NCBI RefSeq assembly: GCF_005377625.1
Contig: NZ_CP040098.1
Location: 744,001-808,000 of the forward strand
DNA: 64,000 nt
DNA from: Desulfoglaeba alkanexedens ALDC
Lineage (GTDB): Bacteria; Desulfobacterota; Syntrophobacteria; Syntrophobacterales; DSM-9756
Direction: 5' to 3'
Shown here: positions 2,991 to 63,092 of the stretch, in pieces
Layout: each line of letters opens with the position of its first letter
Position numbering within the stretch: position 1 is the first letter of the stretch
Notes under the pieces: generated by a model
What the model was told of the DNA's origin: nothing
The model's database searches: none
The model's input: only the letters and a program-made list of their open reading frames with translations
Translations under genes and position numbers: made by a program

Positions 2991-3172
2991 GTTCTTGCGC
3001 CCCTTGCATCGTCGCGCTATGCTTGGACCATGACGCGGCGGCGCTGCACCAGGATCGCAACCCAAATGGACATCCACAGATTACACAGATTGACACAGAT
3101 TAAAGAATCAAGGGGTTTGATGGAAAATCCAATCATCTGTGGCCATCGGTGAAATCTCTGGACAAAGACAGA
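2991..3172. repeat. Dispersed repeat A, copy 2
   Basis: This copy has the full upstream arm (TTCTTGCGCCCC..TTGGACCATGAC) and the core with three CACAGATT direct repeats (3073-3103) opposed by CATCTGTGG. It ends near GGACAAAGACA without the GCCGCC palindrome. It lies between the truncated methyltransferase and the next gene and gives that next gene a spurious 31-codon N-terminal extension. Confidence 0.75.
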
Positions 3173-8764: not shown

Positions 8765-9076
8765 TTCCACCTTGTTCCCAAGCTCCGGCTTGGGAACGGC
8801 CTGCCCAAGAAGCTCCAGCTTCCACACCGGGCTCCCAACATGATTCTTGCCCCGCTTCCATCCCCGCGCTATCCTTGGTCCATGACCCGGCGGCGCTCCA
8901 GCAGAGTGGTAACCCAAATCGACATCCACAGATTACACAGATTGACACAGATTAAAAGAATCAAGGGGCTTGATGGAAAATCCAAGCATCTGTGACCATC
9001 GATGAAATCTGTGCATAAAATCATGATTGTGCCCGCCGTGGCGGCATGATGTCGTGCGACAACTACCCTGACACAG
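8765..9076. repeat. Repeat B hairpin plus dispersed repeat A, copy 3
   Basis: Positions 8772-8800 carry repeat B (CTTGTTCCCAAGCTCCGGCTTGGGAACG), a strong inverted repeat. From about 8840 to 9076 follows a full-length repeat A: TTCTTGCCCCGCTTCC arm, three CACAGATT units, the inverted CATCTGTG half, a GCCGCCGTGGCGGC palindrome and the CTACCCTGACACAG end. It lies directly upstream of the first rpn-like gene, and the same A-then-rpn order recurs twice downstream. Confidence 0.8.
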
Positions 9077-9161
9077 CGGGTGGGGAACGACCCGTTGGCC
9101 ATCCCTGGGGACTGTGATATCTTCAAACGGTATCTCCGGGAACTTTCGCAAGGAGTCCGCC

Positions 9162-10112
9162 ATGGGTGGCTACGATGCCGCGATGAAGGTCATCCTCGCC
9201 CACTGCCGTGAGGCGGCGCTGGAGTTTTTCCTGGGCCTGCATGTCGAAGAATCGGAGATTTTGGAACTTCCCCAGGAGACGGCTTCGGTTCGCCGAAGCG
9301 ATTTTCCCATCCGGGTGCGGGCTTCCGACGGGCGGGTCTTTATCGTATTGCTGGAAGTGCAAAGCCGGTGGGAACCGAACGTACCGTTGCGGCTTCTGGA
9401 ATACGACGTGCGGTATCGTCTGAAAACAGGCCTCTCGGTCTTGCCGGTGGTGATGCTTCTTACCCCCAGCGGGAACGTGGTGGAAAGCTTCGAAGACGGC
9501 GGCATCCGCTACCGGTTCCAGCTGATATCCCTTGCCGCCATGGACGCCCAAAAGGTGCTGGAATGGGGAAATCCGTGTCTCATGCCCTTTGTGGGGCTCA
9601 TGCGGGGAGGGTCGGAGATCTTTCAAAGGGCCGAAGAGGCCGTCTATGGCTCGAGCCTCGGCCGAAGCGACAAGGCGGATCTTTTGACCGGCATGGCGCT
9701 TCTTTCGGGTCTTGTGGACAAGGATCTACCTCGCCGGCTGCTGGAGCGCAGGAGGGACATCATGATGGAATCCTATGCCTATGAACTGATCAAGAAGGAA
9801 GGCTACGAGGAAGGCATCCGCTCGGGAATAGAACAGGGACTGCAGCAGGGAATAGAGCAGGGACTACACCAGGGAATAGAGCAGGGACTACACCAGGGAA
9901 TAGAGCAGGGTCTGCAGCAAGGGACCCTGGAGGCCACACGGGAACATATCCTGGAGACCTTGGAAGCGCGCTTTAAGGATGTTCCCAAAGATATCCTTCA
10001 GTCCCTTCGGGAGATCCGAGATCCGGATGCGCTGAAACTCCTCTTCAGGAAGGCTCTTCGTGCCGATTCCCTGGACGAATTCCGCAAAGCGCTGTCAAGC
10101 TTTTTTGATTAG
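9162..10112 (+). CDS. Rpn/PD-(D/E)XK nuclease-family protein, copy 1
   Basis: A 316-residue protein of the Rpn family (recombination-promoting nuclease / transposase_31-like). A PD-(D/E)XK-style core is visible: Asp in RRSDFPIRVRA, then FIVLLEVQSRWE giving the E-x-Q variant. Ahead of the C-terminal helical region is a tandem octapeptide GIEQGL(Q/H)Q, four copies here. ATG 9162 follows a good AAGGAG ribosome site, and the longer frame has none. Paralogues lie at 14409 and 15870, with a fragment at 31941. The family is linked to RecA-independent recombination, but what this copy does here is unknown. Confidence 0.85.
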   Translation: MGGYDAAMKVILAHCREAALEFFLGLHVEESEILELPQETASVRRSDFPIRVRASDGRVFIVLLEVQSRWEPNVPLRLLEYDVRYRLKTGLSVLPVVMLLTPSGNVVESFEDGGIRYRFQLISLAAMDAQKVLEWGNPCLMPFVGLMRGGSEIFQRAEEAVYGSSLGRSDKADLLTGMALLSGLVDKDLPRRLLERRRDIMMESYAYELIKKEGYEEGIRSGIEQGLQQGIEQGLHQGIEQGLHQGIEQGLQQGTLEATREHILETLEARFKDVPKDILQSLREIRDPDALKLLFRKALRADSLDEFRKALSSFFD

Positions 10113-10394
10113 GCAGCCATTCCCGCAGGTTCTGCAAAGCTTTTCCCCTCGTTCCCAAGCTGGAGCTTGGGAACAAGGGGAATTCCATTTCCCCTCCCCT
10201 TGTGGGAGGGGATTAAGGGGAGGGGAATGTAACCGATTGACATACGTTAATTTTCTCACCCTCACCCCGACCCTCTCCCATCAAGGGAGAGGGGGATTTT
10301 TTGACCTTCTTCCCAAGCTCCACCATCCACCTTGTTCCCAAGCTGGAGCTTGGGAACAAGAAGCAAAGGATCTGCACCCGTTCATGGATCAGGT
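10113..10394. repeat. Intergenic repeats B and C
   Basis: Right after the rpn stop come repeat B (GTTCCCAAGCTGGAGCTTGG near 10150), then repeat C from about 10187 to 10300 (CCCCTCCCCTTGTGGGAGGG ... CTCTCCCATCAAGGGAGAGG), then another B near 10333-10360. Repeat C contains two G/C-rich palindromes. No gene is seen. Confidence 0.7.
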
Positions 10395-13607: not shown

Positions 13608-14408
13608 AAAGCTGACTGCAGGCGGGCCGACCATTACGACGCGGATACAGGTGGGCTGCGGAGGGGAGGCTGAAGAGAGCTCGCGCAGGCTCTATCGCGC
13701 GGTGGACGCCGAGGGCTGGTACTGGGTATCTCCTTCGCCCATTCGCCGTGCCTATCCCCTGACACAAAAGGTTTCCCCTCGTTCCCAAGCTCCGGCTTGG
13801 GGACGCCCTGCCCAAGAAGCTCCAGCTTCGCCCCGGTGTAAAAGATTTGGTAGCGTAGAAAATAATCCACGTAATGCTTGATGCCAAATTCCATTTCCCC
13901 TCCCCTTGTGGGAGGGGATTAAGGGGAGGGGAATGTAACTGATTGACATACGTTAATTTTCTCACCCTCACCCCAACCCTCTCCCATCAAGGGAGAGGGG
14001 GATTTTTTGATTTTCCGCTCGTTCCCAAGCTCCGGCTTGGGAACGCCCTGCCCGTGAAGCTCCAGCTTCCACACCGGGCTCCCCAGATGGTTCTTGCCCC
14101 GCTTCCATCCCCGCCCTATCCTTGGTCCATGCCCCGGCGACGCTCCCCCAGGGTGGTAACCCAAATGGACATCCACAGATTACACAGATTGACACAGATT
14201 AAAAGAATCAAGGCGCTTGATGGAAAATTCAATCATCAGTGACCATCGGTGAAATCTGTGGATAAAATCATGATTGACGCCGCCGTGGCGGCATGATGTC
14301 GTGCGACAACTACCCTGACACAGCGGGTGGGGAACGACCCGTTGGCCATCCCTGGGGACTGTGATATCTTCAAACGGTATCTCCGGGAACTTTCGCAAGG
14401 AGTCCGCC
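13608..14408. repeat. Gene-free block with repeats B, C and A (copy 4)
   Basis: Positions 13608-13770 carry unplaced, GC-rich non-repeat sequence with no supported gene. Repeat B follows near 13780-13825, repeat C from about 13836 to 14010 (including its TTGGTAGCGTAGAAAATAAT leader), repeat B again near 14018-14048, and a full repeat A at about 14081-14324. Repeat A here contains TGTGGATAA at 14257-14265, a perfect match to the classical DnaA-box consensus. The end of the block is the conserved 85-bp leader of the next rpn gene. Confidence 0.7.
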
Positions 14409-15287
14409 ATGGGTGGCTACGATGCCGCGATGAAGGTCATCCTCGCCCACTGCCGTGAGGCGGCGCTGGAGTTTTTCCTGGGCCTGCATGTCGAAGAATC
14501 GGAGATTTTGGAACTTCCCCAGGAGACGGCTTCGGTTCGCCGAAGCGATTTTCCCATCCGGGTGCGGGCTTCCGACGGGCGGGTCTTTATCGTCTTGCTG
14601 GAAGTGCAAAGCCGGTGGGAACCGAACGTACCATTGCGGCTTCTGGAATACGACGCGCGGTATCGTCTGAAAACAGGCCTTTCTGTCTTGCCGGTGGTGA
14701 TGCTTCTCACCCCCAGCGGGAACGTGGTGGAAAGCTTCGAAGACGGCGGCATCCGCTACCGGTTCCAGGTGATATCCCTTGCCGCCATGGACGCCCAAAA
14801 GGTGCTGGAATGGGGAAATCCGTGTCTCATGCCCTTTGTGGGGCTCATGCGGGGAGGGTCGGAGATCTTTCAAAGGGCCGAAGAGGCCGTCTATGGCTCG
14901 AGCCTCGGCCGAAGCGACAAGGCGGATCTTTTGACCGGCATGGCGCTTCTTTCGGGTCTTGTGGACAAGGATCTACCTCGCCGGCTGCTGGAGCGCAGGA
15001 GGGACATCATGATGGAATCCTATGCCTATGAACTGATCAAGAAGGAAGGCTACGAGGAAGGCGTCCGCTCGGGAATAGAACAGGGACTGCAGCAGGGGTC
15101 GCTGGAGGCCACACGGGAACATATCCTGGAGACCTTGGAAGCGCGCTTTAAGGATGTTCCCAAAGATATCCTTCAGTCCCTTCGGGAGATCCGAGATCCG
15201 GATGCGCTGAAACTCCTCTTCAGGAAGGCTCTTCGTGCCGATTCCCTGGACGAATTCCGCAAAGCGCTGTCAAGCTTTTTTGATTAG
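14409..15287 (+). CDS. Rpn/PD-(D/E)XK nuclease-family protein, copy 2
   Basis: 292 residues, nearly identical to the protein at 9162-10112 but with only one GIEQGLQQ unit (then GSLEATREH), hence 24 residues shorter. The Asp of RRSDFPIRV and the E-x-Q of LLEVQSRWE are kept. It starts at the ATG after AAGGAGTCCGCC, in the same leader as its paralogues. Together with repeat A upstream and repeats B/C downstream it forms a ~1.46-kb unit directly repeated at 15870. Confidence 0.85.
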   Translation: MGGYDAAMKVILAHCREAALEFFLGLHVEESEILELPQETASVRRSDFPIRVRASDGRVFIVLLEVQSRWEPNVPLRLLEYDARYRLKTGLSVLPVVMLLTPSGNVVESFEDGGIRYRFQVISLAAMDAQKVLEWGNPCLMPFVGLMRGGSEIFQRAEEAVYGSSLGRSDKADLLTGMALLSGLVDKDLPRRLLERRRDIMMESYAYELIKKEGYEEGVRSGIEQGLQQGSLEATREHILETLEARFKDVPKDILQSLREIRDPDALKLLFRKALRADSLDEFRKALSSFFD

Positions 15288-15869
15288 GCAGCCATTGCCG
15301 CAGGTTCTGTAAAGCTTTTCCCCTCGTTCCCAAGCTGGAGGTTGGAAACGAGGGGAATTCTATTTCCCCTCCCCTTGTGGGAGGGGATTAAGGGGAGGGG
15401 AATGTAACTGATTGACATACGTTAATTCTCTCACCCTCACCCCAACCCTCTCCCATCAAGGGAGAGGGGGATTTTCCGCTCGTTCCCAAGCTCCGGCTTG
15501 GGAACGCCCTGCCCGTGAAGCTCCAGCTTCCACACCGGGCTCGCAACATGATTCTTGCCCCGCTTCCATCCCCGCGCTATTCTTGGTCCATGCCCCGGCG
15601 ACGCTCCACCAGGGTGGTAACCCAAATGGACATCCACAGATTACACAGATTGACACAGATTAAAACAATCAAGGCGCTTGATGGAAAATTCAATCATCTG
15701 TGACCATCGGTGAAATCTGTGGATAAAATCATGATTGACGCCGCCGTGGCGGCATGATGTCGTGCAACAACTACCCTGATACAGCGGGTGGGGAACGACC
15801 CGTTGGCCATCCCTGGGGACTGTGATATCTTCAAACGGTATCTCCGGGAATTTTCGCAAGGAGTCCGCC
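15288..15869. repeat. Gene-free block with repeats B, C and A (copy 5)
   Basis: Order as in the previous rpn spacer: repeat B near 15322-15352 (one arm degenerate), repeat C about 15360-15475, repeat B near 15478-15508, and repeat A about 15541-15784 with TGTGGATAA at 15718-15726. The rpn leader follows. No gene is seen. Confidence 0.75.
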
Positions 15870-16796
15870 ATGGGTGGCTACGATGCCGCGATGAAGGTCA
15901 TCCTCGCCCACTGCCGTGAGGCGGCGCTGGAGTTTTTCCTAGGCCTCCACGTGGAAGAATCGGAGATTTTGGAACTTCCCCAGGAGACGGCTTCGGTTCG
16001 CCGAAGCGATTTTCCCATCCGGGTGCGGGCTTCCGAGGGGCGGGTCTTTATCGTGTTGCTGGAAGTGCAAAGCCGGTGGGAACCGAACGTACCGTTGCGG
16101 CTTCTGGAATACGACGCCCGGTATCGTCTGAAAACGGGCCTCTCGGTCTTGCCGGTGGTGATGCTTCTCACCCCCAGCGGGAACGTGGTCGAAAGCTTCG
16201 AAGACGGCGGCATCCGCTACCGGTTCCAGGTGATATCCCTTGCCGCCATGGACGCCCAAAACGTCCTGGAATGGGGAAATCCGTGTCTCATGCCCTTTGT
16301 GGGGCTCATGCGGGGAGGGTCGGAGATCTTTCAAAGGGCCGAAGAGGCCGTCTATGGCTCGAGCCTCGGCCGAAGCGACAAGGCGGATCTTTTGACCGGC
16401 ATGGCGCTTCTTTCGGGTCTTGTGGACAAGGATCTACCTCGCCGGCTGCTTGAGCGCAGGAGGGACATCATGATGGAATCCTATGCCTATGAACTGATCA
16501 AGAAGGAAGGCTACGAGGAAGGCATCCGCTCGGGAATAGAACAGGGACTGCAGCAGGGAATAGAGCAGGGACTACACCAGGGAATAGAGCAGGGACTGCA
16601 GCAAGGGACCCTGGAGGCCACACGGGAACATATCCTGGAGACCTTGGAAGCACGCTTTAAGGATGTTCCCAAAGATATCCTTCAGTCCCTTCGGAAGATC
16701 CGAGATCCGGATGCGCTGAAACTCCTCTTCAGGAAGGCTCTTCGTGCCGATTCCCTGGACGAATTCCGCAAAGCGCTGTCAAGCTTTTTTGATTAG
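15870..16796 (+). CDS. Rpn/PD-(D/E)XK nuclease-family protein, copy 3
   Basis: 308 residues, the third near-identical paralogue, with three GIEQGL(Q/H)Q units. All three copies keep the same start context, nuclease-like core and C-terminus (ADSLDEFRKALSSFFD), so none is obviously decayed. Differences are almost confined to the 24-bp repeat and scattered substitutions, which points to recent duplication or ongoing gene conversion. Confidence 0.85.
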   Translation: MGGYDAAMKVILAHCREAALEFFLGLHVEESEILELPQETASVRRSDFPIRVRASEGRVFIVLLEVQSRWEPNVPLRLLEYDARYRLKTGLSVLPVVMLLTPSGNVVESFEDGGIRYRFQVISLAAMDAQNVLEWGNPCLMPFVGLMRGGSEIFQRAEEAVYGSSLGRSDKADLLTGMALLSGLVDKDLPRRLLERRRDIMMESYAYELIKKEGYEEGIRSGIEQGLQQGIEQGLHQGIEQGLQQGTLEATREHILETLEARFKDVPKDILQSLRKIRDPDALKLLFRKALRADSLDEFRKALSSFFD

Positions 16797-17840: not shown

Positions 17841-17994
17841 ACATCCACAGATTACACAGATTGACACAGATTAAAAAAGTCGAGGGGCTTGATGGAAAAC
17901 ACAGTGATCTGTGGCCATCGGTGAAATCTGCGGACAAAGACATGATCGGGGCCGCCGTGGCGGCATGACTTCGTGCGACAACTACCCTGACACA
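17841..17994. repeat. Dispersed repeat A, copy 6
   Basis: Core form without the upstream arm: ACATCCACAGATTACACAG, GATTGACACAG, ATCTGTGGCCATCGGTGAA, GCCGCCGTGGCGGC, then CTACCCTGACACA. It separates the coiled-coil gene from the protease gene. Confidence 0.8.
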
Positions 17995-18057
17995 TGGGGA
18001 GGCCGAAAAGGCGAAGCCAAGTCAAGAAGCCCCAGCATCTGAAACGAAGCGAACCGT

Positions 18058-19318: not shown

Positions 19319-19463
19319 GACATCCACAGATTACACAGATTAAAGAATCAATGGGCTTGATGGGAAACCAATAATCTGTCGCCATCAGTGAAATCTGTGG
19401 ACAAATTCATTATCGCAGCCGCCGTGGCGGCATGACTTCGTGCGGCAACCATCGTGACAAACA
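19319..19463. repeat. Dispersed repeat A, copy 7
   Basis: Core form (CATCCACAGATTACACAG, AATCTGTCGCCATCAGTGAA, GCCGCCGTGGCGGC), with a degenerate end CAACCATCGTGACA. The middle CACAGATT unit is missing. It lies between the protease and sapC. Confidence 0.75.
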
Positions 19464-19483: not shown

Positions 19484-20320
19484 GTGACACCATCGCCACA
19501 ACTTACCGCGATCACCGCGGAGCGGTTCTCTGGAAAAGCGTGGCGGCGCTATAACGGTTACGCGTTTGCCGCCAAGGAAAACCTCATTGCACTGGTCGCC
19601 GCCGAATTGGCCAACGCCGTTCCCGCCATGCCCGTGGGCTTCGTTCAGACGGGCGAAGGCTTTCAACTGGTGGCCGTGACCGGCCTTGAACCGGCTGTCA
19701 ACTTGTTTGTGGCCCCTGATGGTCGGTGGCTGAGTTCCTATGTCCCGGCCACTCTGCGTGGCTACCCTTTCCGGCTTGTCAAGGTGGAAGGCCGAGAAGA
19801 AAGCCTTCTGTGTATCGATGAAGCCAGCGGCCTGGTGGTTGAAACCGGACTGGGTGAACCCTTCTTTGACGAGACCGGCCAGCCCGCTCAGGCACTGAAA
19901 CAGGTCCTGGAGTTTCTGTCCCAGGTCGAACGCAGCCGCATGGCGACCGAGGCGGCGGTCGACGCTCTGGCCGCTGCAGGCCTCATTCAACCCTGGCCGT
20001 TGAACCTTAAACGAGGCGAACAGCAGGTGGCGGTAACCGGTTTGTACCGCATCGACGAAGCCGCACTCCATGCGCTGGACGACAAGGCGTTCCTCGGCCT
20101 GCGCGCGTCAGGCGCCTTGCCGGTAGCCTACGCCCAGCTAATGTCCATCAACCAGCTTACCGTGTTGGAACGACTGGCTCAGCTTCAAGCCAAGCTGCAG
20201 GCTCAGGCCTCCAGGGTTGTGCAAAAACTTGCGAACCTGGAAGGCATCGGTTTGTCGCAGGACGATGGAACGCTCAAGTTTGACTCATCTTTGACAGTGG
20301 CAAAAAAAGTATATCAGTAA
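19484..20320 (+). CDS. sapC: SapC family protein with an IS-derived C-terminal tail
   Basis: 278 residues matching the SapC family: SGKAWRRYNGYAFAAKENLI, then VPAMPVGFVQTGEGFQLVAV and the GLFVAPDGRWL-like VAPDGRWLSSYVPATLRGYPF region. Family members are linked to S-layer and surface proteins, but their biochemical role is unclear. I chose GTG 19484, preceded by GAGAGGAGGCTTGAT, over the GTG at 19454. The gene is struck by an IS at 20284. Without it the frame would read GTLKFD then TGA using the TTTGACTGA at 24040-24048; with it 11 foreign residues (SSLTVAKKVYQ) are added. The protein is probably still functional. Confidence 0.82.
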   Translation: MTPSPQLTAITAERFSGKAWRRYNGYAFAAKENLIALVAAELANAVPAMPVGFVQTGEGFQLVAVTGLEPAVNLFVAPDGRWLSSYVPATLRGYPFRLVKVEGREESLLCIDEASGLVVETGLGEPFFDETGQPAQALKQVLEFLSQVERSRMATEAAVDALAAAGLIQPWPLNLKRGEQQVAVTGLYRIDEAALHALDDKAFLGLRASGALPVAYAQLMSINQLTVLERLAQLQAKLQAQASRVVQKLANLEGIGLSQDDGTLKFDSSLTVAKKVYQ

Positions 20321-20373
20321 TGTCAATGACATACGACCCCATTGGAAGTTTTTGGCACTACGCTCCGTTCCGT

Positions 20374-21781
20374 CTAGGAGAGTACCCGGATGGTGGGAGG
20401 GATGGCAACTCCCACGGCCCTGAAGACGCTGCTGCACGTGCCCAGACATTGGGACCGCAGAGCGAAGCGCTTGCCGTTCTCCTCGATGAGGATTTCCTGG
20501 AGGGCACTCAGATCTTGCTTGATATCAGACCACTCAAAGGCGTGCCCCGCCCGGTCCAGACGCCGGTAGAGCTCCTTTCGAAGTATCAGCGCCAGGAAGG
20601 AGCAGAACACATGTCCACGGATGGTGTCATCACGTTGGTGGAAAACGGGCCGCGTCTCAAAGGTCGACTTGAGGTCTCTGAAGGAGTGCTCTACCTGCCA
20701 GAGTTCCTTGTACTTAAGGGCCACCCGATCCGAAGACCAGCTGGTGTTGGTGATGAGGACCCACTTCCCATCGAACCTCTCCTCCTCCTTGACCTTGTCG
20801 AGATCGATATGGATGCTGTCCTTGTCCACCTTGAGGAACTTGCGATACCCCTCGTTGCCGACAAGCGCCTTGGGGCCTTTGCGGATCTGTTCCCTGAGCG
20901 AGTCGATGATCTTGTCACGGTCGGCTTTGTCCTTCTCGGCCTGCTTGGGATTCAGACAAACGATGTAGCGCTTGTCCCGCACCATGACCTCCTTGACCTT
21001 GAGGGGAGAGCGGCCTTCACACCTGACCTCCTTGTAGCGGCCGGCTCGGGCAAGTACTTCGGCGGTGATCTCCTTGACCTTCCGCATCCGGGTCCCAAGG
21101 ATGTAAGCTATCTTCCTTCCTTCAAGTTCTCGGATCGTCTCGCTGCTGACCATGCCACGGTCGGCCACGATGCAGAACCTCCCCACCCCAAAACGCTTGC
21201 GAATGCGATCCGTCACGGGAAGCAGAGTCTTGACGTCCGTGGAGTTGCCCGGCCACATCTCACAGCAAAGAGGCCTGCCGTTCTGGTCCAGGACGGCTCC
21301 CACCACCATTTGCTTGAGCTCGGGGCGGTGATCCTTGCTGAACCCTCTCCTGCCAAGGCTTTCACCTCCTTCGCCATGGAAGTAAACGGAAGTGGTGTCG
21401 AAAAACACCAGGTCGAGCTCGGCAAACAGGTGCCGCTGGCCCGCGAACATTTTCTCCTCGATGACATCCTTGACACATCGCGGAGAAGACAGGGTGGCAT
21501 GTTCCTGATCGTCCAGCACTTCGCCCAGAAACGCCATCGCCCGGTAGAACTGATGCAGAGCGAGGTCTTCGGTTCCCTTGACCACGAGATCGCGGCGCCA
21601 CTTGTCGCAGAAGCGGTCCGATCCGCTGATCAGTATCCTGTGCAACACGGTGAGGAAGATGGCTCGTTCCACATCGAACAGGAAAGCCCGGTTATGGAGC
21701 AGGTCTCTGATCACCTGTTGAATTCCCAACTCACACCAGAGCCGTTCAAAGATGATGGCGGGGCCGATCGTCTTTGCCTCA
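20374..21781 (-). pseudogene. IS1634-type transposase of the outer element, C-terminal part
   Basis: The C-terminal ~469 codons of the outer transposase, beginning at EAKTIGPAIIFERLWCE, where the inner element entered. The remaining 5' part is at 23657-23876. The catalytic region is present (VFFDTTSVYFHGEGGE, VADRGMVSSETIRELE, YKELWQVEHSFRDLKS) but the gene is split, so no full protein can be made. A spurious start MPLSKMS derives from the inner element end. Confidence 0.9.
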
Positions 21782-23656
21782 CTCATCTTTGACAGTGGCA
21801 AAAAAGTATATCAGTAATGTCAATGACATACGACCCCATTGGAAGTTTTTGGCACTACGCTCCGTTCCGTCTAGGAGAGTACCCGGATGGTGGGAGGGAT
21901 GGCAACTCCCACGGCCCTGAAGACGCTGCTGCACGTGCCCAGACATTGGGACCGCAGAGCGAAGCGCTTGCCGTTCTCCTCGATGACGATTTCCTGGAGG
22001 GCACTCAGATCTTGCTTGATATCAGACCACTCAAAGGCGTGGCCCGCCCGGTCCAGACGCCGGTAGAGCTCCTTTCGAAGTATCAGCGCCAGGAAAGAGC
22101 AGAACACATGTCCCCGGATGGTGTCATCACGTTGGTGGAAAACGGGCCGCGTCTCAAAGGTCGACTTGAGGTCTCTGAAGGAGTGCTCTACCTGCCAGAG
22201 TTCCTTGTACTTAAGGGCCACCCGATCCGAAGACCAGCTGGTGTTGGTGATGAGGACCCACTTCCCATCGAACCTCTCCTCCTCCTTGACCTTGTCGAGA
22301 TCGATATGGATGCTGTCCTTGTCCACCTTGAGGAACTTGCGATACCCCTCGTTGCCGACAAGCGCCTTGGGGCCTTTGCGGATCTGTTCCCTGAGCGAGT
22401 CGATGATCTTGTCACGGTCGGCTTTGTCCTTCTCGGCCTGCTTGGGATTCAGACAAACGATGTAGCGCTTGTCCCGCACCATGACCTCCTTGACCTTGAG
22501 GGGAGAGCGCCCTTCACACTTGACCTCCTTGTAGCGGCCGGCTCGGGCAAGTACTTCGGCGGTGATCTCCTTGACCTTCCGCATCCGGGTCCCAAGGATG
22601 TAAGCTATGTTCCTTTCTTCAAGTTCTCGGATCGTCTCCCTGCTGACCATGCCACGGTCGGCCACGATGCAGAACCTCCCCACCCCAAAACGCTTGCGAA
22701 TGCGATCCGTCACGGGAACCAGAGTCTTGACGTCCGTGGAGTTGCCCGGCCACATCTCACAGCAAAGAGGCCTGCCGTTCTGGTCCAGGACGGCTCCCAC
22801 CAGCATTTGCTTGAGCTCGGGGCGGTGATCCTTGCTGAACCCTCTCCTGCCAAGGCTTTCACCTCCTTCGCCATGGAAGTAAACGGAAGTGGTGTCGAAA
22901 AACACCAGGTCCAGCTCGGCAAACAGGTGGCGCTGGCCCGCGAACATTTTCTCCTCGATGACATCCTTGACACATCGCGGAGAAGACAGGGTGGCATGTT
23001 CCTGATCGTCCAGCACTTCGCCCAGAAACGCCATCGCCCGGTAGAACTGATGCAGAGCGAGGTCTTCGGTTCCCTTGACCACGAGATCGCGGCCCCACTT
23101 GTCGCAGAAGCGGTCCGATCCGCTGATCAGTATCCTGTGCAACACGGTGAGGAAGATGGCTCGTTCCACATCGAACAGGAAAGCCCGGTTATGGAGCAGG
23201 TCTCTGATCACCTGTTGAATTCCCAACTCACACCAGAGCCGTTCAAAGATGATGGCGGGGCCGATCGTCTTTGCCTCACACTGGATCTTGCTCTTCCCGG
23301 AAAGGACCAGCAAAGCTTTCTCGCTGAAACGCGAAAGAGAGCGGATGAGGGTCTCGACCTCGCCTTTGGCACTCAGTTTGTCCATACGCCCAACGGTTGC
23401 AATCACGCGCTGGGTGACCTTGGAGTTAACCCTCTGGTTTTCAACGATTTGCAGGTAGTCATACTTACCGGACTTTTTGATGCGAGCGAACATGCGAGCC
23501 TCCTCTTAGGACACTCGCAAATTAGCTCATGCAGGAACACATTGCAAGGGCAAAACCATCATTCTATGGCACTACAGAATGACGCATTTTCCAGACATGC
23601 CCTAGCATCCATGCGGATTTGCGGGATGTGACCAGGTGGTCACTGTAAAACTTGAG
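21782..23656 (-). mobile_element. IS1634-type element, inner copy (complete)
   Basis: A complete 1875-bp element with the same CTCA..TTT.ACAGTG terminal repeats as the outer copy. It is flanked by the 5-bp duplication CCTCA (21777-21781 and 23657-23661) taken from the outer copy's transposase gene, so it inserted into its own relative in the same orientation. Confidence 0.93.
21871..23493 (-). CDS. IS1634-family transposase (intact, inner copy)
   Basis: 540 residues, full length for the IS1634 family. It starts MFARIKKSGKYDYLQIVENQ and keeps DDE-type motifs: Asp in LDLVFFDTTSVYFHGEGGES, Asp in FCIVADRGMVSRETI and Glu in ELWQVEHSFRDLKSTFETRP. It makes the double-strand cuts that move the element. 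A GAGGAGG-like ribosome site precedes the ATG. It is the only undamaged transposase of this family here and could mobilise the outer copy's ends. Confidence 0.92.
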   Translation of the reverse strand: MFARIKKSGKYDYLQIVENQRVNSKVTQRVIATVGRMDKLSAKGEVETLIRSLSRFSEKALLVLSGKSKIQCEAKTIGPAIIFERLWCELGIQQVIRDLLHNRAFLFDVERAIFLTVLHRILISGSDRFCDKWGRDLVVKGTEDLALHQFYRAMAFLGEVLDDQEHATLSSPRCVKDVIEEKMFAGQRHLFAELDLVFFDTTSVYFHGEGGESLGRRGFSKDHRPELKQMLVGAVLDQNGRPLCCEMWPGNSTDVKTLVPVTDRIRKRFGVGRFCIVADRGMVSRETIRELEERNIAYILGTRMRKVKEITAEVLARAGRYKEVKCEGRSPLKVKEVMVRDKRYIVCLNPKQAEKDKADRDKIIDSLREQIRKGPKALVGNEGYRKFLKVDKDSIHIDLDKVKEEERFDGKWVLITNTSWSSDRVALKYKELWQVEHSFRDLKSTFETRPVFHQRDDTIRGHVFCSFLALILRKELYRRLDRAGHAFEWSDIKQDLSALQEIVIEENGKRFALRSQCLGTCSSVFRAVGVAIPPTIRVLS

Positions 23657-27794: not shown

Positions 27795-29542
27795 CAGCAA
27801 TTTCCGGAGCCCCTGTAAAGCCTTGAAAACCGGGCCTTGAAGGATTTGGTTTTCGCGAACCCAGGGGGTGATTTCGGGCTCCGAAGGGGGTTTCGGAGGT
27901 GAATTTTTTCGACTATTTTGCTGTTTCATGCTGGACAGCCGCCCGCGTCTCTGGTAGGCTATTTTGCCATGAAGCCCAGCAAAGACGCTCCTTCCTCCAA
28001 GATCCGACTTCGCAAGCATCTGAATGCAGATGCCCTGGTGAGGGCGGTGCGCCGTGAGTTCGAAAAGATCCCCGATCCCCGCAAAGGCAGGCCGCAGATC
28101 TCCTTTGCGGATGCGGCCATGAGCGCCTTCGCCATGTTTTCTTTGAAGGATCCCTCTCTTCTGGCCTTTGAGAAACGCTGGTCGGCTCGGGATCACAACC
28201 TGCACGCGCTCTACCACATCGAGAAGATCCCTGCCGACAGCACCATGCGGGAGATTCTCGATGAGGTTTCGCCCTATGTGTTCCGACCCGGCTTCGGCGA
28301 GATCTTCTCACGGCTTCAGCGCGGCAAGGCGCTGGCTCAGATGACCGTGCTGGACGGCCGCTACATCCTGGCCCTGGACGGCACGGGCTATTTTTCGTCG
28401 GAAAAGGTCTTTTCCGACGCCTGCCTTCGAAAAACCTCTCGCACCGGCAAGACCACCTATTCCCTGCAAATGATGGGAGCCGCCCTCGTCCACCCGGACC
28501 ACAAGGCCGTGATCCCCTTTCCCCCCGAAGTGATCCGAAGAGAAGACGGTGACACCAAAAACGACTGCGAACGCAACGCCGCCGGCCGTTGTATCGAGAA
28601 CCTGAGAACCGACCACCCCCATATCAAGCTCATCGTGACCGAAGATGCCCTCAGTCCCAACGCTCCCCACATTGAAACCCTCAAGCGCTTCGACTGCCGC
28701 TTCGTCCTTGGGGTTAAACCCGGCGATCACGCCTTCCTTTTCGAAAAGGCCGACGAGGCCATCGCGGAGGGCCGGGCTGTGGAGTTCTGGCACGCAGCGG
28801 AAGACAACCCCGAAACCCTCCATTACTTCCGCTTCATCAACGATCTTCCCCTCAACAAGTCCCATCCCGACCTTCGAGTGAACCTCCTCGAATACTGGCA
28901 GGTGACCCCCAAGGGGCTTGTCCGGTTTTCCTGGGTCACGGACATCCTCATCCGCCGGGAAAACGCCGTTACCTTGATGCGGATCGGCCGGGCACGCTGG
29001 CGCATCGAAAACGAAACCTTCAACACTTTGAAAAACCAGGGCTACCACCTCGAACACAACTACGGCCTGGGCCGAAAACACCTTAGCGCCGTCTTCGTCA
29101 CCCTCATGATGTTGGCCTTCTGCGTGGACCAGAGCCTCCAACTGTGTTGCCCGCTGTTTCAGGCCGTATGGCGAAAGCTCCAAACCAAACGGGACCTATG
29201 GGAGAGGATCCGGGCCATGTTCTGGGACTTCCGCCTGGAGTCCATCCGGATGCTTCACGAGGCCCTTCTTTACGGATACAAAACGCTGACCCCGATCATC
29301 GCCTATAACAGCTCGTAGGGCGGAGAAAGGAATCACCCCCATGCAGAACCTGCGCCTTTCACCCGAAAAACAGACCCCGGGGTGCGCCTTCAAACCGGGC
29401 ATCTGAGCCCCTCACGCTCCAGGTGGCATCCCTCAACGGGACGTTCGGACCCTCGATCACCCCAAACGGCCCGCTGAAGACTCGAAGACTCTCCTTTCAC
29501 GCCCGCTTTTCACCCAAGGACCATCCACTCCGGGAATTGCTG
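27795..29542 (+). mobile_element. IS4-like insertion sequence, copy 2
   Basis: 1748 bp, the inverted counterpart of the element at 1055-2801, with the same terminal repeats. It cuts a barrel-type gene on the left and a polysaccharide permease gene on the right. Neither gene continues on the other side, and no target duplication is visible (left GATCGT, right GAAAAC). It therefore marks a rearrangement or deletion junction and not a simple insertion. Confidence 0.88.
27918..29318 (+). CDS. IS4-like DDE transposase, copy 2
   Basis: 466 residues, intact, about 98% identical to the copy at 1278-2678 (differences include FRPGFGE for FRPAFGE, DGRYIL for DGHYIL, TSRTGK for TSATGK). The same candidate catalytic residues are kept in ILALDGTGYF, IVTEDALSPN and RWRIENETFN. 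The alternative start MKPSKDAP lies at codon 18. Confidence 0.88.
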   Translation: MLFHAGQPPASLVGYFAMKPSKDAPSSKIRLRKHLNADALVRAVRREFEKIPDPRKGRPQISFADAAMSAFAMFSLKDPSLLAFEKRWSARDHNLHALYHIEKIPADSTMREILDEVSPYVFRPGFGEIFSRLQRGKALAQMTVLDGRYILALDGTGYFSSEKVFSDACLRKTSRTGKTTYSLQMMGAALVHPDHKAVIPFPPEVIRREDGDTKNDCERNAAGRCIENLRTDHPHIKLIVTEDALSPNAPHIETLKRFDCRFVLGVKPGDHAFLFEKADEAIAEGRAVEFWHAAEDNPETLHYFRFINDLPLNKSHPDLRVNLLEYWQVTPKGLVRFSWVTDILIRRENAVTLMRIGRARWRIENETFNTLKNQGYHLEHNYGLGRKHLSAVFVTLMMLAFCVDQSLQLCCPLFQAVWRKLQTKRDLWERIRAMFWDFRLESIRMLHEALLYGYKTLTPIIAYNSS

Positions 29543-30214: not shown

Positions 30215-31226
30215 TTTCGGTCTGCAGGCCGCCGTCCCGAGTCCATCCAATCCCTTGGCGCTGCCTTTGACGCACGCCGCCCGGCACGCCGCCCCCGCCA
30301 CGCCGCCCGGCACCCCCCTCAAGGCAAAGCCCCATGCCGCCGAGGCAGGTAACGGACAAACGACCGTGCAGCCAAGGATCGAGATCCGCGTCGGCGCCGC
30401 GCGGTGGCGTTACCTTCCGATGCCGGCAGCCGACCCGGCACCTGCCTGGCGACACCACGCCTGTTCCAACGCATTCCCGAACCTCCTTACAGCAAACGAC
30501 CGCAAGATGCAACGACAACAGCGCAGGCGGGAGCAGCGGTGTATGTCAAGACACGTGTCGCACGAAGTCGCGGAAAAGCAAAGGACATCCACAGATTACA
30601 AAGAGCTGCATCCACAGATGACACAGACTTACACAGATAAACACCCCCTTGTTCCCAAGCCACACCATCCCCCTTGTTCCCAAGCTGGAGCTTGGGAACA
30701 AGGGGAATTCTATTTCCCCTCCCCTTGTGGGAGGGGATTAAGGGGCGGGGGAGAGCGGGAACGGCTGCCCATATTGTTTTTGCCCGGCTTCCATCCACGC
30801 GCTATCCTTGGACCATGACCCGGCGACGCTCCACCAGGGTGGTAACCCAAATGGACATCCACAGATTACACAGATTGACACAGATTAAAAGAATCAAGGC
30901 GCTTGATGGAAAATTCAATCATCTGTGGCCATCGGTGAAATCTTTCGATAAAATTATTATTGTGCCTGCCATGGCGGGATGACTTCGTGCGACAACTACC
31001 CTGACACAGGGGGGTAACCCATGCCTTTCACTGGGACGGGAACTCCGCTGCGCTGCGTTCCCGCCGGTGAAGGCTACGTTAGAAAGGATAATGTAGCTAA
31101 TGGAAAAAAAAAACACGCAAGAGAGGCTCTAAGCTATCTGAGAAAAACAAGAATAAGACCTCTAAATTAAGGAATAAGAATGTTGAAGGTAGTAGAATAG
31201 CTCAAACAAAGTACCATAATTTAAAT
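30215..31226. repeat. Gene-free block with repeats B, C and A (copy 8)
   Basis: Positions 30215-30540 are GC-rich with no supported gene. Near 30551-30640 is a partial and scrambled repeat A (GACACGTGTCGCACGAAG, CATCCACAG, ACACAGACTTACACAG). Repeat B lies near 30648-30700, the first palindrome of repeat C at 30710-30750 and a full repeat A at about 30775-31006. From about 31080 the sequence turns AT-rich and holds only short broken frames before the gene at 31227. Confidence 0.65.
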
Positions 31227-31783: not shown

Positions 31784-31937
31784 CCAATGGACATCCACAG
31801 ATTACACAGATTAAAAGAATCAAGGGGCTTGATGGAAAATCCAAACATCTGTGGCCATCGGTGAAATCTGTGGACAAAGACATGATCGGGGCCGCCGTGG
31901 CGGGATGACTTCGTGCGACAACTACCCTGACACAGGG
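31784..31937. repeat. Dispersed repeat A, copy 9
   Basis: Core form from CCAATGGACATCCACAG to CTACCCTGACACAGG. Its right end abuts the interior of an rpn-like gene at 31941 with no leader, which defines the repeat's terminus as ACACAGGGGGG. Confidence 0.8.
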
Positions 31938-31940
31938 GGG

Positions 31941-32253
31941 ATGCTTCTCACCCCCAGCGGGAACGTGGTGGAAAGCTTCGAAGACGGCGGCATCCGCTAC
32001 CGGTTCCAGGTGATATCTCTTGCCGCCATGGACGCCCAAAAGGTGCTGGAATGGGGAAATCCGTGCCTCATGCCGTTTGTAGGGCTCATGAGGGGAGGGT
32101 CGGAGATCCTTCAAAGGGCCGAAGATGCCGTCTATGGCTCGAGCCTCGGCCGAAGCGACAAGGCGGATCTTTTGACCGGCATGGCGCTTCTTTCAGGTCT
32201 TGTGGACAAGGATCTACCTCGCCGGCTGCTGGAGCGCAGGAGGGACATCATGA
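31941..32253 (+). pseudogene. Rpn-family protein, internal fragment
   Basis: About 104 codons equal to the middle of the rpn copies at 9162/14409/15870 (MLLTPSGNVVESFEDGGIRY through LERRRDIM). The nuclease-like N-terminus is replaced by repeat A, and the octapeptide repeat and C-terminus are missing, replaced by a 7-bp simple repeat. It cannot be functional. Confidence 0.88.
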
Positions 32254-46320: not shown

Positions 46321-46645
46321 CTCGCATCTCCTTTTCGTCGAAGACATCCTGCGGGCAAAGCGTCTGACCGATCATGAACCATCTATAGCACGAATCACGT
46401 ATAGCACGAATGAGGCCGTACGGTCCGCACGGAATGCATGATGATTTGCAAGCTTCCTCCCCCCGGTGTGATTTTCCCCCTCGTTCACAAGCTGAAGCTT
46501 GGGAACGAGGGATGATTCGTCCACGCTCCATCTGTGGCCATCGGTGAAATCCGGGGTCAAAGACATGATCGGGGCCGCCGTGGCGGCATGACGTCGTGCG
46601 ACAACCACCTTTACAGACACCGCCCCCCAACCCCCGAAGAAACGC
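46321..46645. repeat. Repeat B and partial repeat A inside the T2SS operon
   Basis: Repeat B lies near 46483-46512 and the 3' half of repeat A from about 46529 to 46621 (CATCTGTGGCCATCGGTGAA, GCCGCCGTGGCGGC, CAACCACCTTTACAGACAC). A short GAATCACGTATAGCACGAAT tandem is at 46390-46411. The block interrupts an otherwise compact operon between gspD and gspC. Confidence 0.75.
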
Positions 46646-56089: not shown

Positions 56090-56656
56090 GGGGAACCCGT
56101 TACACCCCCTTCACTCAGGATCCTTTGAAAAGGCCGGACGCGCGACAGCCCGAAACCGCCATGTCTTCCGCGAGGATCAAAAGTGGAACCCCTCGCCTCC
56201 TATGCGGAGCCGGCCGTTGCGCCCTTCAACGGCCGAGGAGGCTTCCGGGCGCACGTCTAATCCGTTCAACCCCCACTTTTGGAACCAATATGTCACATTT
56301 TCACGTCAAAGGCCAAGAGCTTCACTCAAAAGATGCGATGGAACGTGGAGCACGGCCGATCGCTGATTTCGTGACCGGATCGGCGCGGGCCCATCCGGCA
56401 AGGTAACGGCATCTTCCACCTTGTTCCCAAGCTCGACCATCCACCTTGTTCCCAAGCTCGACCATCCACCTTGTTCCACCTTGTTCCCAAGCTCGACCAT
56501 CCACCTTGTTCCCAAGCTCCAGCTTGGGAACACAACTGTGTAGAAGCTCCAGCTTCGATCACCATAAGGAGGCGAAGCCGGAGCTTGGGAACGAGGGATG
56601 ATTCGTCCAGGCTCCACACCTGTGGCCATCGGTGAAATCCGTGGACAAAGACATCG
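56090..56656. repeat. Upstream region of the T2SS operon with repeat B array
   Basis: Positions 56090-56410 hold no supported gene and probably contain the gspE promoter. Positions 56413-56530 are an array of four ACCTTGTTCCCAAGCTCGAC-like repeat B half-units in tandem, followed by a full B palindrome and a partial repeat A near 56618-56656. Confidence 0.6.
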
Positions 56657-56900
56657 GTGTGTCTCAAGACACGTGTCGCACCAAGCCAAGCACATCCACA
56701 CGGGGCCACCCACATGGTTCTTGCCCCGCTTCCGTCCCCGCGCTAGGTTTGCATCATAACCCGTCGGCGCTCCACCGTGGATACATTCACCAAGGGGCGT
56801 CGGATGCGCGGCGCGTTTCCCTGTGGCGCCTGCAGGTCACGGGTCGATGCGGGTGCTAACCCAAATGGGCATCCACAGATTACACAGATTGACACAGACC
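56657..56900. repeat. Long direct repeat D1 (left border of the integron island)
   Basis: About 244 bp from GTGTGTC..AAGACACGTGTCGCA to CCAAATGGGCATCCACAG and the first CACAGATT units of repeat A. It is repeated in direct orientation with few differences at 61943-62188. It encloses an arm distinct from the usual repeat A arm (CACCGTGGATACATTCACCA and TTTCCCTGTGGCGCCTGCAG). Confidence 0.8.
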
Positions 56901-61942: not shown

Positions 61943-62188
61943 GTGTGTCCAGACACCTGTCGCACGAAGCCAAGCACATCCACACGGGGCCACCCACATG
62001 GTTCTTGCCCCGCTTCCGTCCCCGCGCTAGGTTTGCATCATAACCCGCCGGCGCTCCACCGTGGATACATTCACCAAGGGGCGCCGGGTGCGCGGCGCGT
62101 TTCCCTGTGGCGCCTGCAGGTGACGGCTCAATCGATGGGCGCGCCAACCCAAATGGGCATCCACAGATTACACAGATTGACACAGATT
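61943..62188. repeat. Long direct repeat D2 (right border of the integron island)
   Basis: Matches D1 (56657-56900) in direct orientation over about 245 bp, including ACACGGGGCCACCCACATGG and TTTCCCTGTGGCGCCTGCAG. It continues into a fuller repeat A (to about 62250) with the CATCTTTGGCCATCGCTGAA half. The two copies are 5286 bp apart. Confidence 0.8.
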
Positions 62189-62337
62189 AAAGAATCAAGG
62201 AGCTCGATGGAAAATACAGTCATCTTTGGCCATCGCTGAAATCTGTGGAATAGTACATTCCGGTCGTGACCGTGAGATACGCTATCTTTTCAACAAATTC
62301 CACGTAAAACCCACAAATGACGTTGTGCGGTTGAACT

Positions 62338-62748: not shown

Positions 62749-63092
62749 ACTTTCCACCTTGTTCCCAAGCCGGACCATCCACCTTGTTCCCAACCTCCAG
62801 CTTGGGAACGAGGGGAAATAATAGACCTAATATTTGATGCCAAGTTCTATTTCCCCTCCCCTTGTGGGAGGGGATTAAGGGGAGGGGAATGTAACTGATT
62901 GACATACGTTAATTTTCTCACCCTCACCCCAACCCTCTCCTTCCCCTCCCCTTGTGGGAGGGGATTAAGGGGAGGGGGAGAGAGGGATTTTTTGACCTTC
63001 GTTAACCTTTTTGCTTAAGGTCTCCACTTTAGAACGCTGCCAAAAGTTTGCGGAGCTCCGACGGGCCCGGACGAGCCTCCATCGGGAGGACC
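62749..63092. repeat. Gene-free block with repeats B and C
   Basis: Repeat B half-units at 62755-62812, repeat C from about 62815 to 63000 with its first palindrome duplicated (62850-62887 and 62940-62978), and the tail TTTGACCTTCGTTAACCTTT. No gene. Confidence 0.75.

Follow-up and report, generated by a model that had tools for sequence, protein, structure and literature searches.

What is repeat A, the dispersed element reported at positions 8840-9076 of the window (the whole 64-kb stretch of DNA analysed here), and what could have spread it? An earlier note on this DNA had described a dispersed repeat with forward triplets and inverted units, and this description was confirmed in part: allowing up to three mismatches, the query CACAGATTACACAGATT was found 17 times in the window versus 0.11 expected from shuffles, with the forward triplet exact in seven window copies and inverted CATCTGTG...AATCTGTGG blocks occurring 12 times.

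Layout of repeat A and its surroundings

Alignment of the copies together with their flanks resolved a core of two facing arrays of three CACAGAT words each, in which the forward array (ATC-CACAGAT-TA-CACAGAT-TGA-CACAGAT-T) is followed by a loop of 32-33 nt and then by the inverted arrangement. The facing arrays give repeat A terminal inverted repeats, a property of MITEs. In the reported copy, the sharp core comprises both arrays and spans 8924-9016, which displaces the left boundary previously set at 8840, and sequence outside the core is optional. A left block (8881-8919 and upstream) precedes the core in only five window copies; on the right, the copies at 3.0k and 62.1k end after the inverted array, while long copies continue past it through codons derived from a GxxExxY gene (described below) to CTGACACAG. 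The conserved end that had been noted is real in that ACCCTGACACAG recurs eight times in the window, mismatches allowed, but the right end takes different forms among the copies. Altogether, the window holds seven complete two-armed copies plus partial ones, with the following features (window coordinates).

8924-8953, + strand: forward array of the reported copy, three CACAGAT words with a period of 9 and 10
8987-9016, + strand: inverted array of the reported copy, three words on the other strand; loop 33 nt, fold z -2.7
9032-9049, + strand: GCCGCCGTGGCGGC block of the reported copy, homologous to the first codons of GxxExxY
9053-9076, + strand: CTGACACAG right end of the reported copy, array-free elsewhere in the genome
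8881-8919, + strand: left block, in five window copies only (3029, 8881, 14128, 15589, 30814)
899-1035, + strand: partial copy with shortened forward array, inverted array, GxxExxY-derived block and end
3072-3163, + strand: core copy without right extension
14171-14323, + strand: full copy, TGTGGATAA at 14257
15632-15784, + strand: full copy, TGTGGATAA at 15718
17843-17995, + strand: full copy without left block
19321-19459, + strand: copy with inverted array and GxxExxY-derived block, the forward array having two words
30610-30639, + strand: forward array alone
30857-31009, + strand: full copy plus left block
31793-31935, + strand: copy whose forward array has two words and whose right end abuts the mid-part of a broken Rpn-like gene
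46529-46618, + strand: right half alone, with inverted array, GxxExxY-derived block and diverged end
56617-56645, + strand: inverted array alone
56871-56900, + strand: forward array alone
62159-62250, + strand: core copy without right extension

A BLAST search of the reported copy against its own genome (3.37 Mb, one contig) returned 46 pieces, and pieces of repeat A cluster at genome positions 124-142 kb, 714-806 kb (window included) and 2.087 Mb. Because the CTGACACAG end also occurs array-free elsewhere in the genome, the long form of repeat A is a mosaic. Ends of the CATGCGACAACTACCCTGACACAGGGGG type without CACAGATT arrays were located at genome positions 1507147, 1517337, 1822883, 2579819 and 2596655, mostly following a common GGATTTAGATCA stretch, and look like the terminus of a different repeat. 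A second dispersed palindrome, TTCCCCTCGTTCCCAAGCTGGAGCTTGGGAACAAGGGGAA, is more abundant and is frequently found next to or within repeat A composites (window 10150-10183, 10333-10360, 30675-30707, 62777-62818 and many further positions, with high density at genome 684-828 kb). No Rfam family reached its gathering score anywhere in the window.

The Rpn-like gene, of ~330 aa, is present as three near-identical copies plus a fragment (9114-10112, 14361-15287, 15822-16796 and 31937-32236), the copies differing in the number of 12/24-bp repeats coding EQGLQQGI/HQG. This gene was considered as the mover of repeat A, which stands upstream of four of about eight paralogues, and was rejected, since four genomic copies precede the same gene through duplication of a ~1.4-kb block; its protein matches TIGR01784 weakly, and TIGR01784 was detected in only 4 of 53 genomes. 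Additionally, a 1.5-kb sequence at 1257-2801 recurs in inverted orientation at 27795-29339 with 99% identity and a weak DDE transposase match, the pair being a probable insertion sequence bracketing 25 kb. A ~490-aa open reading frame (ORF) is duplicated in tandem (20303-21792 and 21800-23631), with no Pfam or NCBIfam match.

The iteron-like spacing of the words, together with the presence of TGTGGATAA at 14257 and 15718, which we verified, had raised the question of a DnaA-binding or other replication-iteron site. Both TGTGGATAA 9-mers represent variant forms of the outermost word; they occur in 2 of 12 window copies and four times in the 321 kb of genome fetched, and conserved TTATCCACA boxes were not found. 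Moreover, the words of the sister elements described below (CGCAAAG, CACAGAG, CACGAAT and others) are not DnaA boxes, and this diversity contradicts the DnaA reading, to which we attach almost no credence.

GxxExxY genes beside arrays in the same genome

A larger matching element, for which the earlier note had proposed a search, was found in the same genome; it carries a GxxExxY gene and codes no transposase. The genome has three GxxExxY genes, all adjoining CACAGAT or CACGGAT arrays. At genome positions 128860-129345, the left half of repeat A, loop included, leads directly into such a gene, and repeat A is alignable with this element over about 150 nt, with arrays, loop and first codons in common. 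The palindrome previously ascribed to the repeat recurs, the GCCGCCGTGGCGGC block appearing eight times in the window (0.1 by chance) and GCCGCCGTGGCGGCATGA likewise eight times (0.1 in shuffles), but it is largely start-of-gene sequence, matching the codons of IIGAAMEV at the beginning of the GxxExxY gene at 21/23 (0 of 2000 shuffles). No GxxExxY gene or recognisable pseudogene was found in the window.

Because arrays, loop and first codons align to this parent, repeat A is best read, on the sequence evidence, as a truncated derivative of it: a non-autonomous, partly mosaic descendant of an element consisting of a word array, a GxxExxY gene and the same array inverted. This agrees with the earlier suggestion of a non-autonomous mobile-like element, as does the presence or absence of sister elements at one site in Bacteroides (below). 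The opposite outcome, in which the copies would prove to be random-length pieces of a larger known element, holds only in that they are pieces of a larger element; their array core is sharp and conserved, and the larger element is undescribed in the literature searched. Repeat A in full was absent from the 98 relatives searched, where array fragments were seen only in G002 and G048; each of these two genomes, with their CACAGATT fragments, has a GxxExxY gene within about 1 kb. The third GxxExxY gene of the D. alkanexedens genome (L176, genome 1773185-1773526) runs into the beginning of the ORF that follows it, and the initial codons of that ORF span a facing-array hairpin, the element being squeezed between two genes; the first 218 aa of that ORF had no Pfam match.

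Eight of the eight GxxExxY proteins from array-fetched loci matched PF13366 and TIGR04256 above the curated cut-off, and the full element's gene clearly belongs to this family (TIGR04256, PF13366 PDDEXK_3), which is known solely as a family of unknown function, its arrays being absent from the papers found. In the alignment, the E of GxxExxY, a D, an ExK and HxxQxxxY are invariant, and D, ExK and QxxxY among these are residues of catalytic type. An AlphaFold model (pLDDT 93) had as its nearest structure SSO0001 (Z 9.9), a Cas4-family nuclease, with other PD-(D/E)XK proteins, Cas4 and Hjc among them, at Z 6-8; lambda exonuclease was among the Foldseek matches, for which E-values against the PDB were only about 1e-3. 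Since many such proteins score similar Z, we claim only the fold class, the model placing GxxExxY in the PD-(D/E)XK nuclease fold, which is no proof of activity. A search for a solved structure by sequence gave T7 endonuclease I as the sole candidate (E=0.67), on which we do not rely.

A small nuclease-fold ORF with short tandem repeats upstream, and with PADLOC matches to Cas4 and PDC-M36A that are weak (E about 1e-3), might also be expected of an addiction or defence module, in which a nuclease toxin is restrained by the array or its RNA, as in type III toxin-antitoxin systems. However, the arrays lie on both sides of the gene, inverted, and are mostly gene-less, their spacers are not conserved, and in one locus (L361) a decayed gene persists with its arms, so that we regard such a module as very improbable.

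Arrays, words and GxxExxY genes across genomes

Arrays of this kind are very widespread: among the matches listed, one exact 28-bp array pattern hit loci from many phyla of a species-level collection, including Bacteroidetes, Aminicenantes, Spirochaetes, Verrucomicrobia, Planctomycetes, Nitrospirae and Proteobacteria. An inverted partner was present within 200 nt at 58 of 121 array loci among these matches, as against 0 of 109 in a control interval. Most arrays are solo, without a gene; at several loci, the small ORF beside or between the arrays is GxxExxY, and loci fetched by the array alone contained eight GxxExxY genes in 880 kb, six of them within 175 nt of an array. Starting from the gene instead, TIGR04256 scored over the cut-off in 53 of 148 phylum genomes searched. 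For the 89 GxxExxY genes with full flanks, we compared the 300 nt on either side and scored their best inverted match; the median was 33, and 60% reached a score of at least 30, compared with 0 of 24 ParE genes of the same genomes, 2% of 60 random places and 1% of cross-paired GxxExxY flanks. The remaining 40% scored below 30, and may have decayed arms, be solitary genes or have been scored too strictly. GxxExxY was present in 12 of 13 genomes with ACAGAT triple arrays versus 42 of 135 others (p=2e-5), and no other transposase gene consistently adjoined the arrays.

The arms are rows of a short word with a period of 9-10, and the word varies (CACAGAT, CGCAAAG, CACAGAG, CACGAAT, CACGGAA, CGCAGAT, CGCCAAG and others). 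For pairs across different taxonomic families, word similarity tracks protein identity (Mantel r=0.42, Pearson; 0 of 5000 permutations), a correlation that persists with GC differences removed and among pairs below 60% identity. This covariation suggests that GxxExxY recognises these repeats; it would equally be expected if gene and arrays were simply inherited together.

Comparing the left arm with the inverted right arm of the same element, mismatches amounted to 4% at word positions and 48% in spacers (p=5e-22), the 4% figure being biased downward because the word columns were picked by motif on one arm; among the window copies, the arms mismatched at 15 of 147 word positions and 21 of 35 spacer positions. 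Because spacers mismatch while words match, the arrays resemble not so much a conserved stem as rows of putative protein-binding sites spaced by about one helical turn, in line with the protein-binding array envisaged earlier.

The same comparison bears on whether the arrays are host-useful hairpins, such as bidirectional terminators, mRNA stabilisers or REP-like chromosome-organising sites, instead of mobile ends. Single-strand hairpins do fold better than shuffles (z -2.7 to -3.7), and B. stercorirosoris has about 19 solo hairpins of 97-100% identity with unique flanks, many of which lie 17-60 nt past a stop codon, often between convergent genes, as would suit a host function; their dispersal as near-identical copies counts at the same time for a mobile element. 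Free spacers between matching words are, however, the opposite of what a stem requires, and presence or absence at one site in close relatives, as well as gene-word covariation, speaks against a host role, which we consider improbable. A cruciform is possible, yet it is not the conserved feature. No exact target duplication was found among the B. stercorirosoris copies, and the outer ~20 nt of both sides are similar.

Presence and absence could be followed at a Bacteroides-type intergenic site, lying between a gene whose product ends in VEEAFRALFG and one whose product begins with MIQEYQ, and read in about 30 genomes. The site is element-free and short (3-90 bp) in many genomes, retains short remnants of arrays in a few (L340 and L350, for example) and carries an array-GxxExxY-array element in 11. 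Five of these elements, encoding one protein clade (L338, L343, L357, L341, L365), have CACAGATT arms, the left arm of L341 being mixed, and six, from two other protein clades (L339, L347, L353, L354, L344, L361), have CACAGAG arms. Between L338 and L339, flanks and outer bases (TGATTCACC, GGTGAAAAAATAAATTATGATA) are common, whereas the gene and the word of both arms differ. In L163/L338, L152 and L158, the array begins at the stop codon of the gene, and in L361 the gene is broken with the arms kept. Unrelated single genes occupy the site in L345 and L371, and for this reason it may be a general insertion hot spot.

Cassette exchange via homologous recombination in the common flanks and outer words would explain the Bacteroides swap, and leads to the question of whether GxxExxY is only a passenger or self-regulator, with the arrays as operators or unbound, and with spread due to a host HUH/RAYT, an IS transposase or homologous recombination between arrays. 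The mosaic copies of repeat A, partly spread by block duplication, fit this account, and so do the TIGR02436 genes, which have an unrelated fold and the same architecture: 72% are flanked by inverted short-word arrays at a score of at least 30, with words that track the protein (Mantel r=0.35, 4 of 5000). On the other hand, a functional link is called for by the gene-specific words of each family, where conservation lies in the word and not in a stem, and by the near-constant presence of GxxExxY in array-bearing genomes; nor are other transposase genes consistently adjacent. We judge a passenger role, the main rival to GxxExxY as mover, unlikely, though deserving of real weight. The TIGR02436 loci (L296-L325, with L325 at genome 90014-90325) are S23p/IVS-type genes outside rRNA, situated between inverted arrays of ~7-nt words (GGGTTAT, AATCGTA, GTTTCGA, CAAGTTG and others).

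Proposed mechanism and related systems

We consider it fairly probable that repeat A originated from an array-GxxExxY-array element with GxxExxY as its mover, and hold the enzymatic part with less confidence. According to this model, GxxExxY would bind its cognate words, with multiple protein copies lined up along the same helix face (period 9-10), and nick or cut at the arrays; repair or replication could then copy or move, in trans, the element or whatever DNA retains two facing arrays. Being gene-less, repeat A would depend in trans on the full GxxExxY genes of the genome, and truncated copies of this kind would parasitise the full element in the way proposed for REPINs and RAYT. Word binding, cutting and mobilisation by GxxExxY are steps that we infer.

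More tentatively, and at somewhat less than an even chance, these elements may represent a very widespread and formerly unrecognised class of minimal mobile elements, whose sole protein is a ~125-aa PD-(D/E)XK nuclease recognising a word reiterated in inverted terminal arrays, with word and protein coevolving. Such a class would explain much of the dispersed CACAGATT-, CGCAAAG-, CACAGAG- and CACGAAT-type repeats across phyla, and S23p/IVS elements, with their different protein and ~7-nt words, would form a second class alongside it. In Coxiella, the IVS is a selfish element of 428 nt that contains one small ORF, has terminal inverted repeats and carries three GACAGAT heptamers adjoining the ORF; as published, it sits in rRNA and is excised by RNase III (PMC4990558). 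GxxExxY elements likewise have a small ORF, terminal inverted repeats and short tandem repeats by the ORF, but IVS/S23p encodes a four-helix bundle (TIGR02436) with ~7-nt words, whereas the parent of repeat A encodes TIGR04256, of PD-(D/E)XK fold, with a 9-10 nt period. Because the unrelated TIGR02436 family has the same architecture, GxxExxY may not be the mover, and the shared architecture can be read either for or against that role.

REP and REPIN sequences are non-autonomous palindromes thought to depend on a cognate protein, RAYT, encoded once or a few times, with repeat diversity following the protein (PMC3116915, PMC2817692). The system of repeat A is similar in having dispersed non-autonomous elements with a cognate protein that the repeats follow; it differs in having PD-(D/E)XK in place of a Y1/HUH transposase, three-word rows in place of single tagged palindromes, and a gene between the arrays. 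No Y1 (HUH) transposase flanked by repeats was found, the gene between the arrays examined being GxxExxY. Like MITEs, repeat A is short, multicopy and gene-less, and retains the ends of a full element found in the same genome; unlike them, it is composite with other repeats and its full element has no transposase. We thus see the kinship with REPIN- or MITE-like dispersed repeats that have a cognate protein, and the system would be categorically new if the nuclease were shown to move DNA. No paper on the GxxExxY-array association was found by repeat words or family identifiers in a search that many subscription papers lay outside, so that priority is not established; the lone literature match to a repeat word was a primer in a B. 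fragilis invertible promoter region, and was set aside.

Repeats of this type abound between the genes of bacteria and have lacked an explanation, and linking them to one nuclease-fold family merges two unknowns, the repeats and the role of GxxExxY, into one question. The association also supplies numerous naturally occurring protein-word pairs from which a DNA-recognition code might be read, and may point to transposase-free movement by a nuclease.
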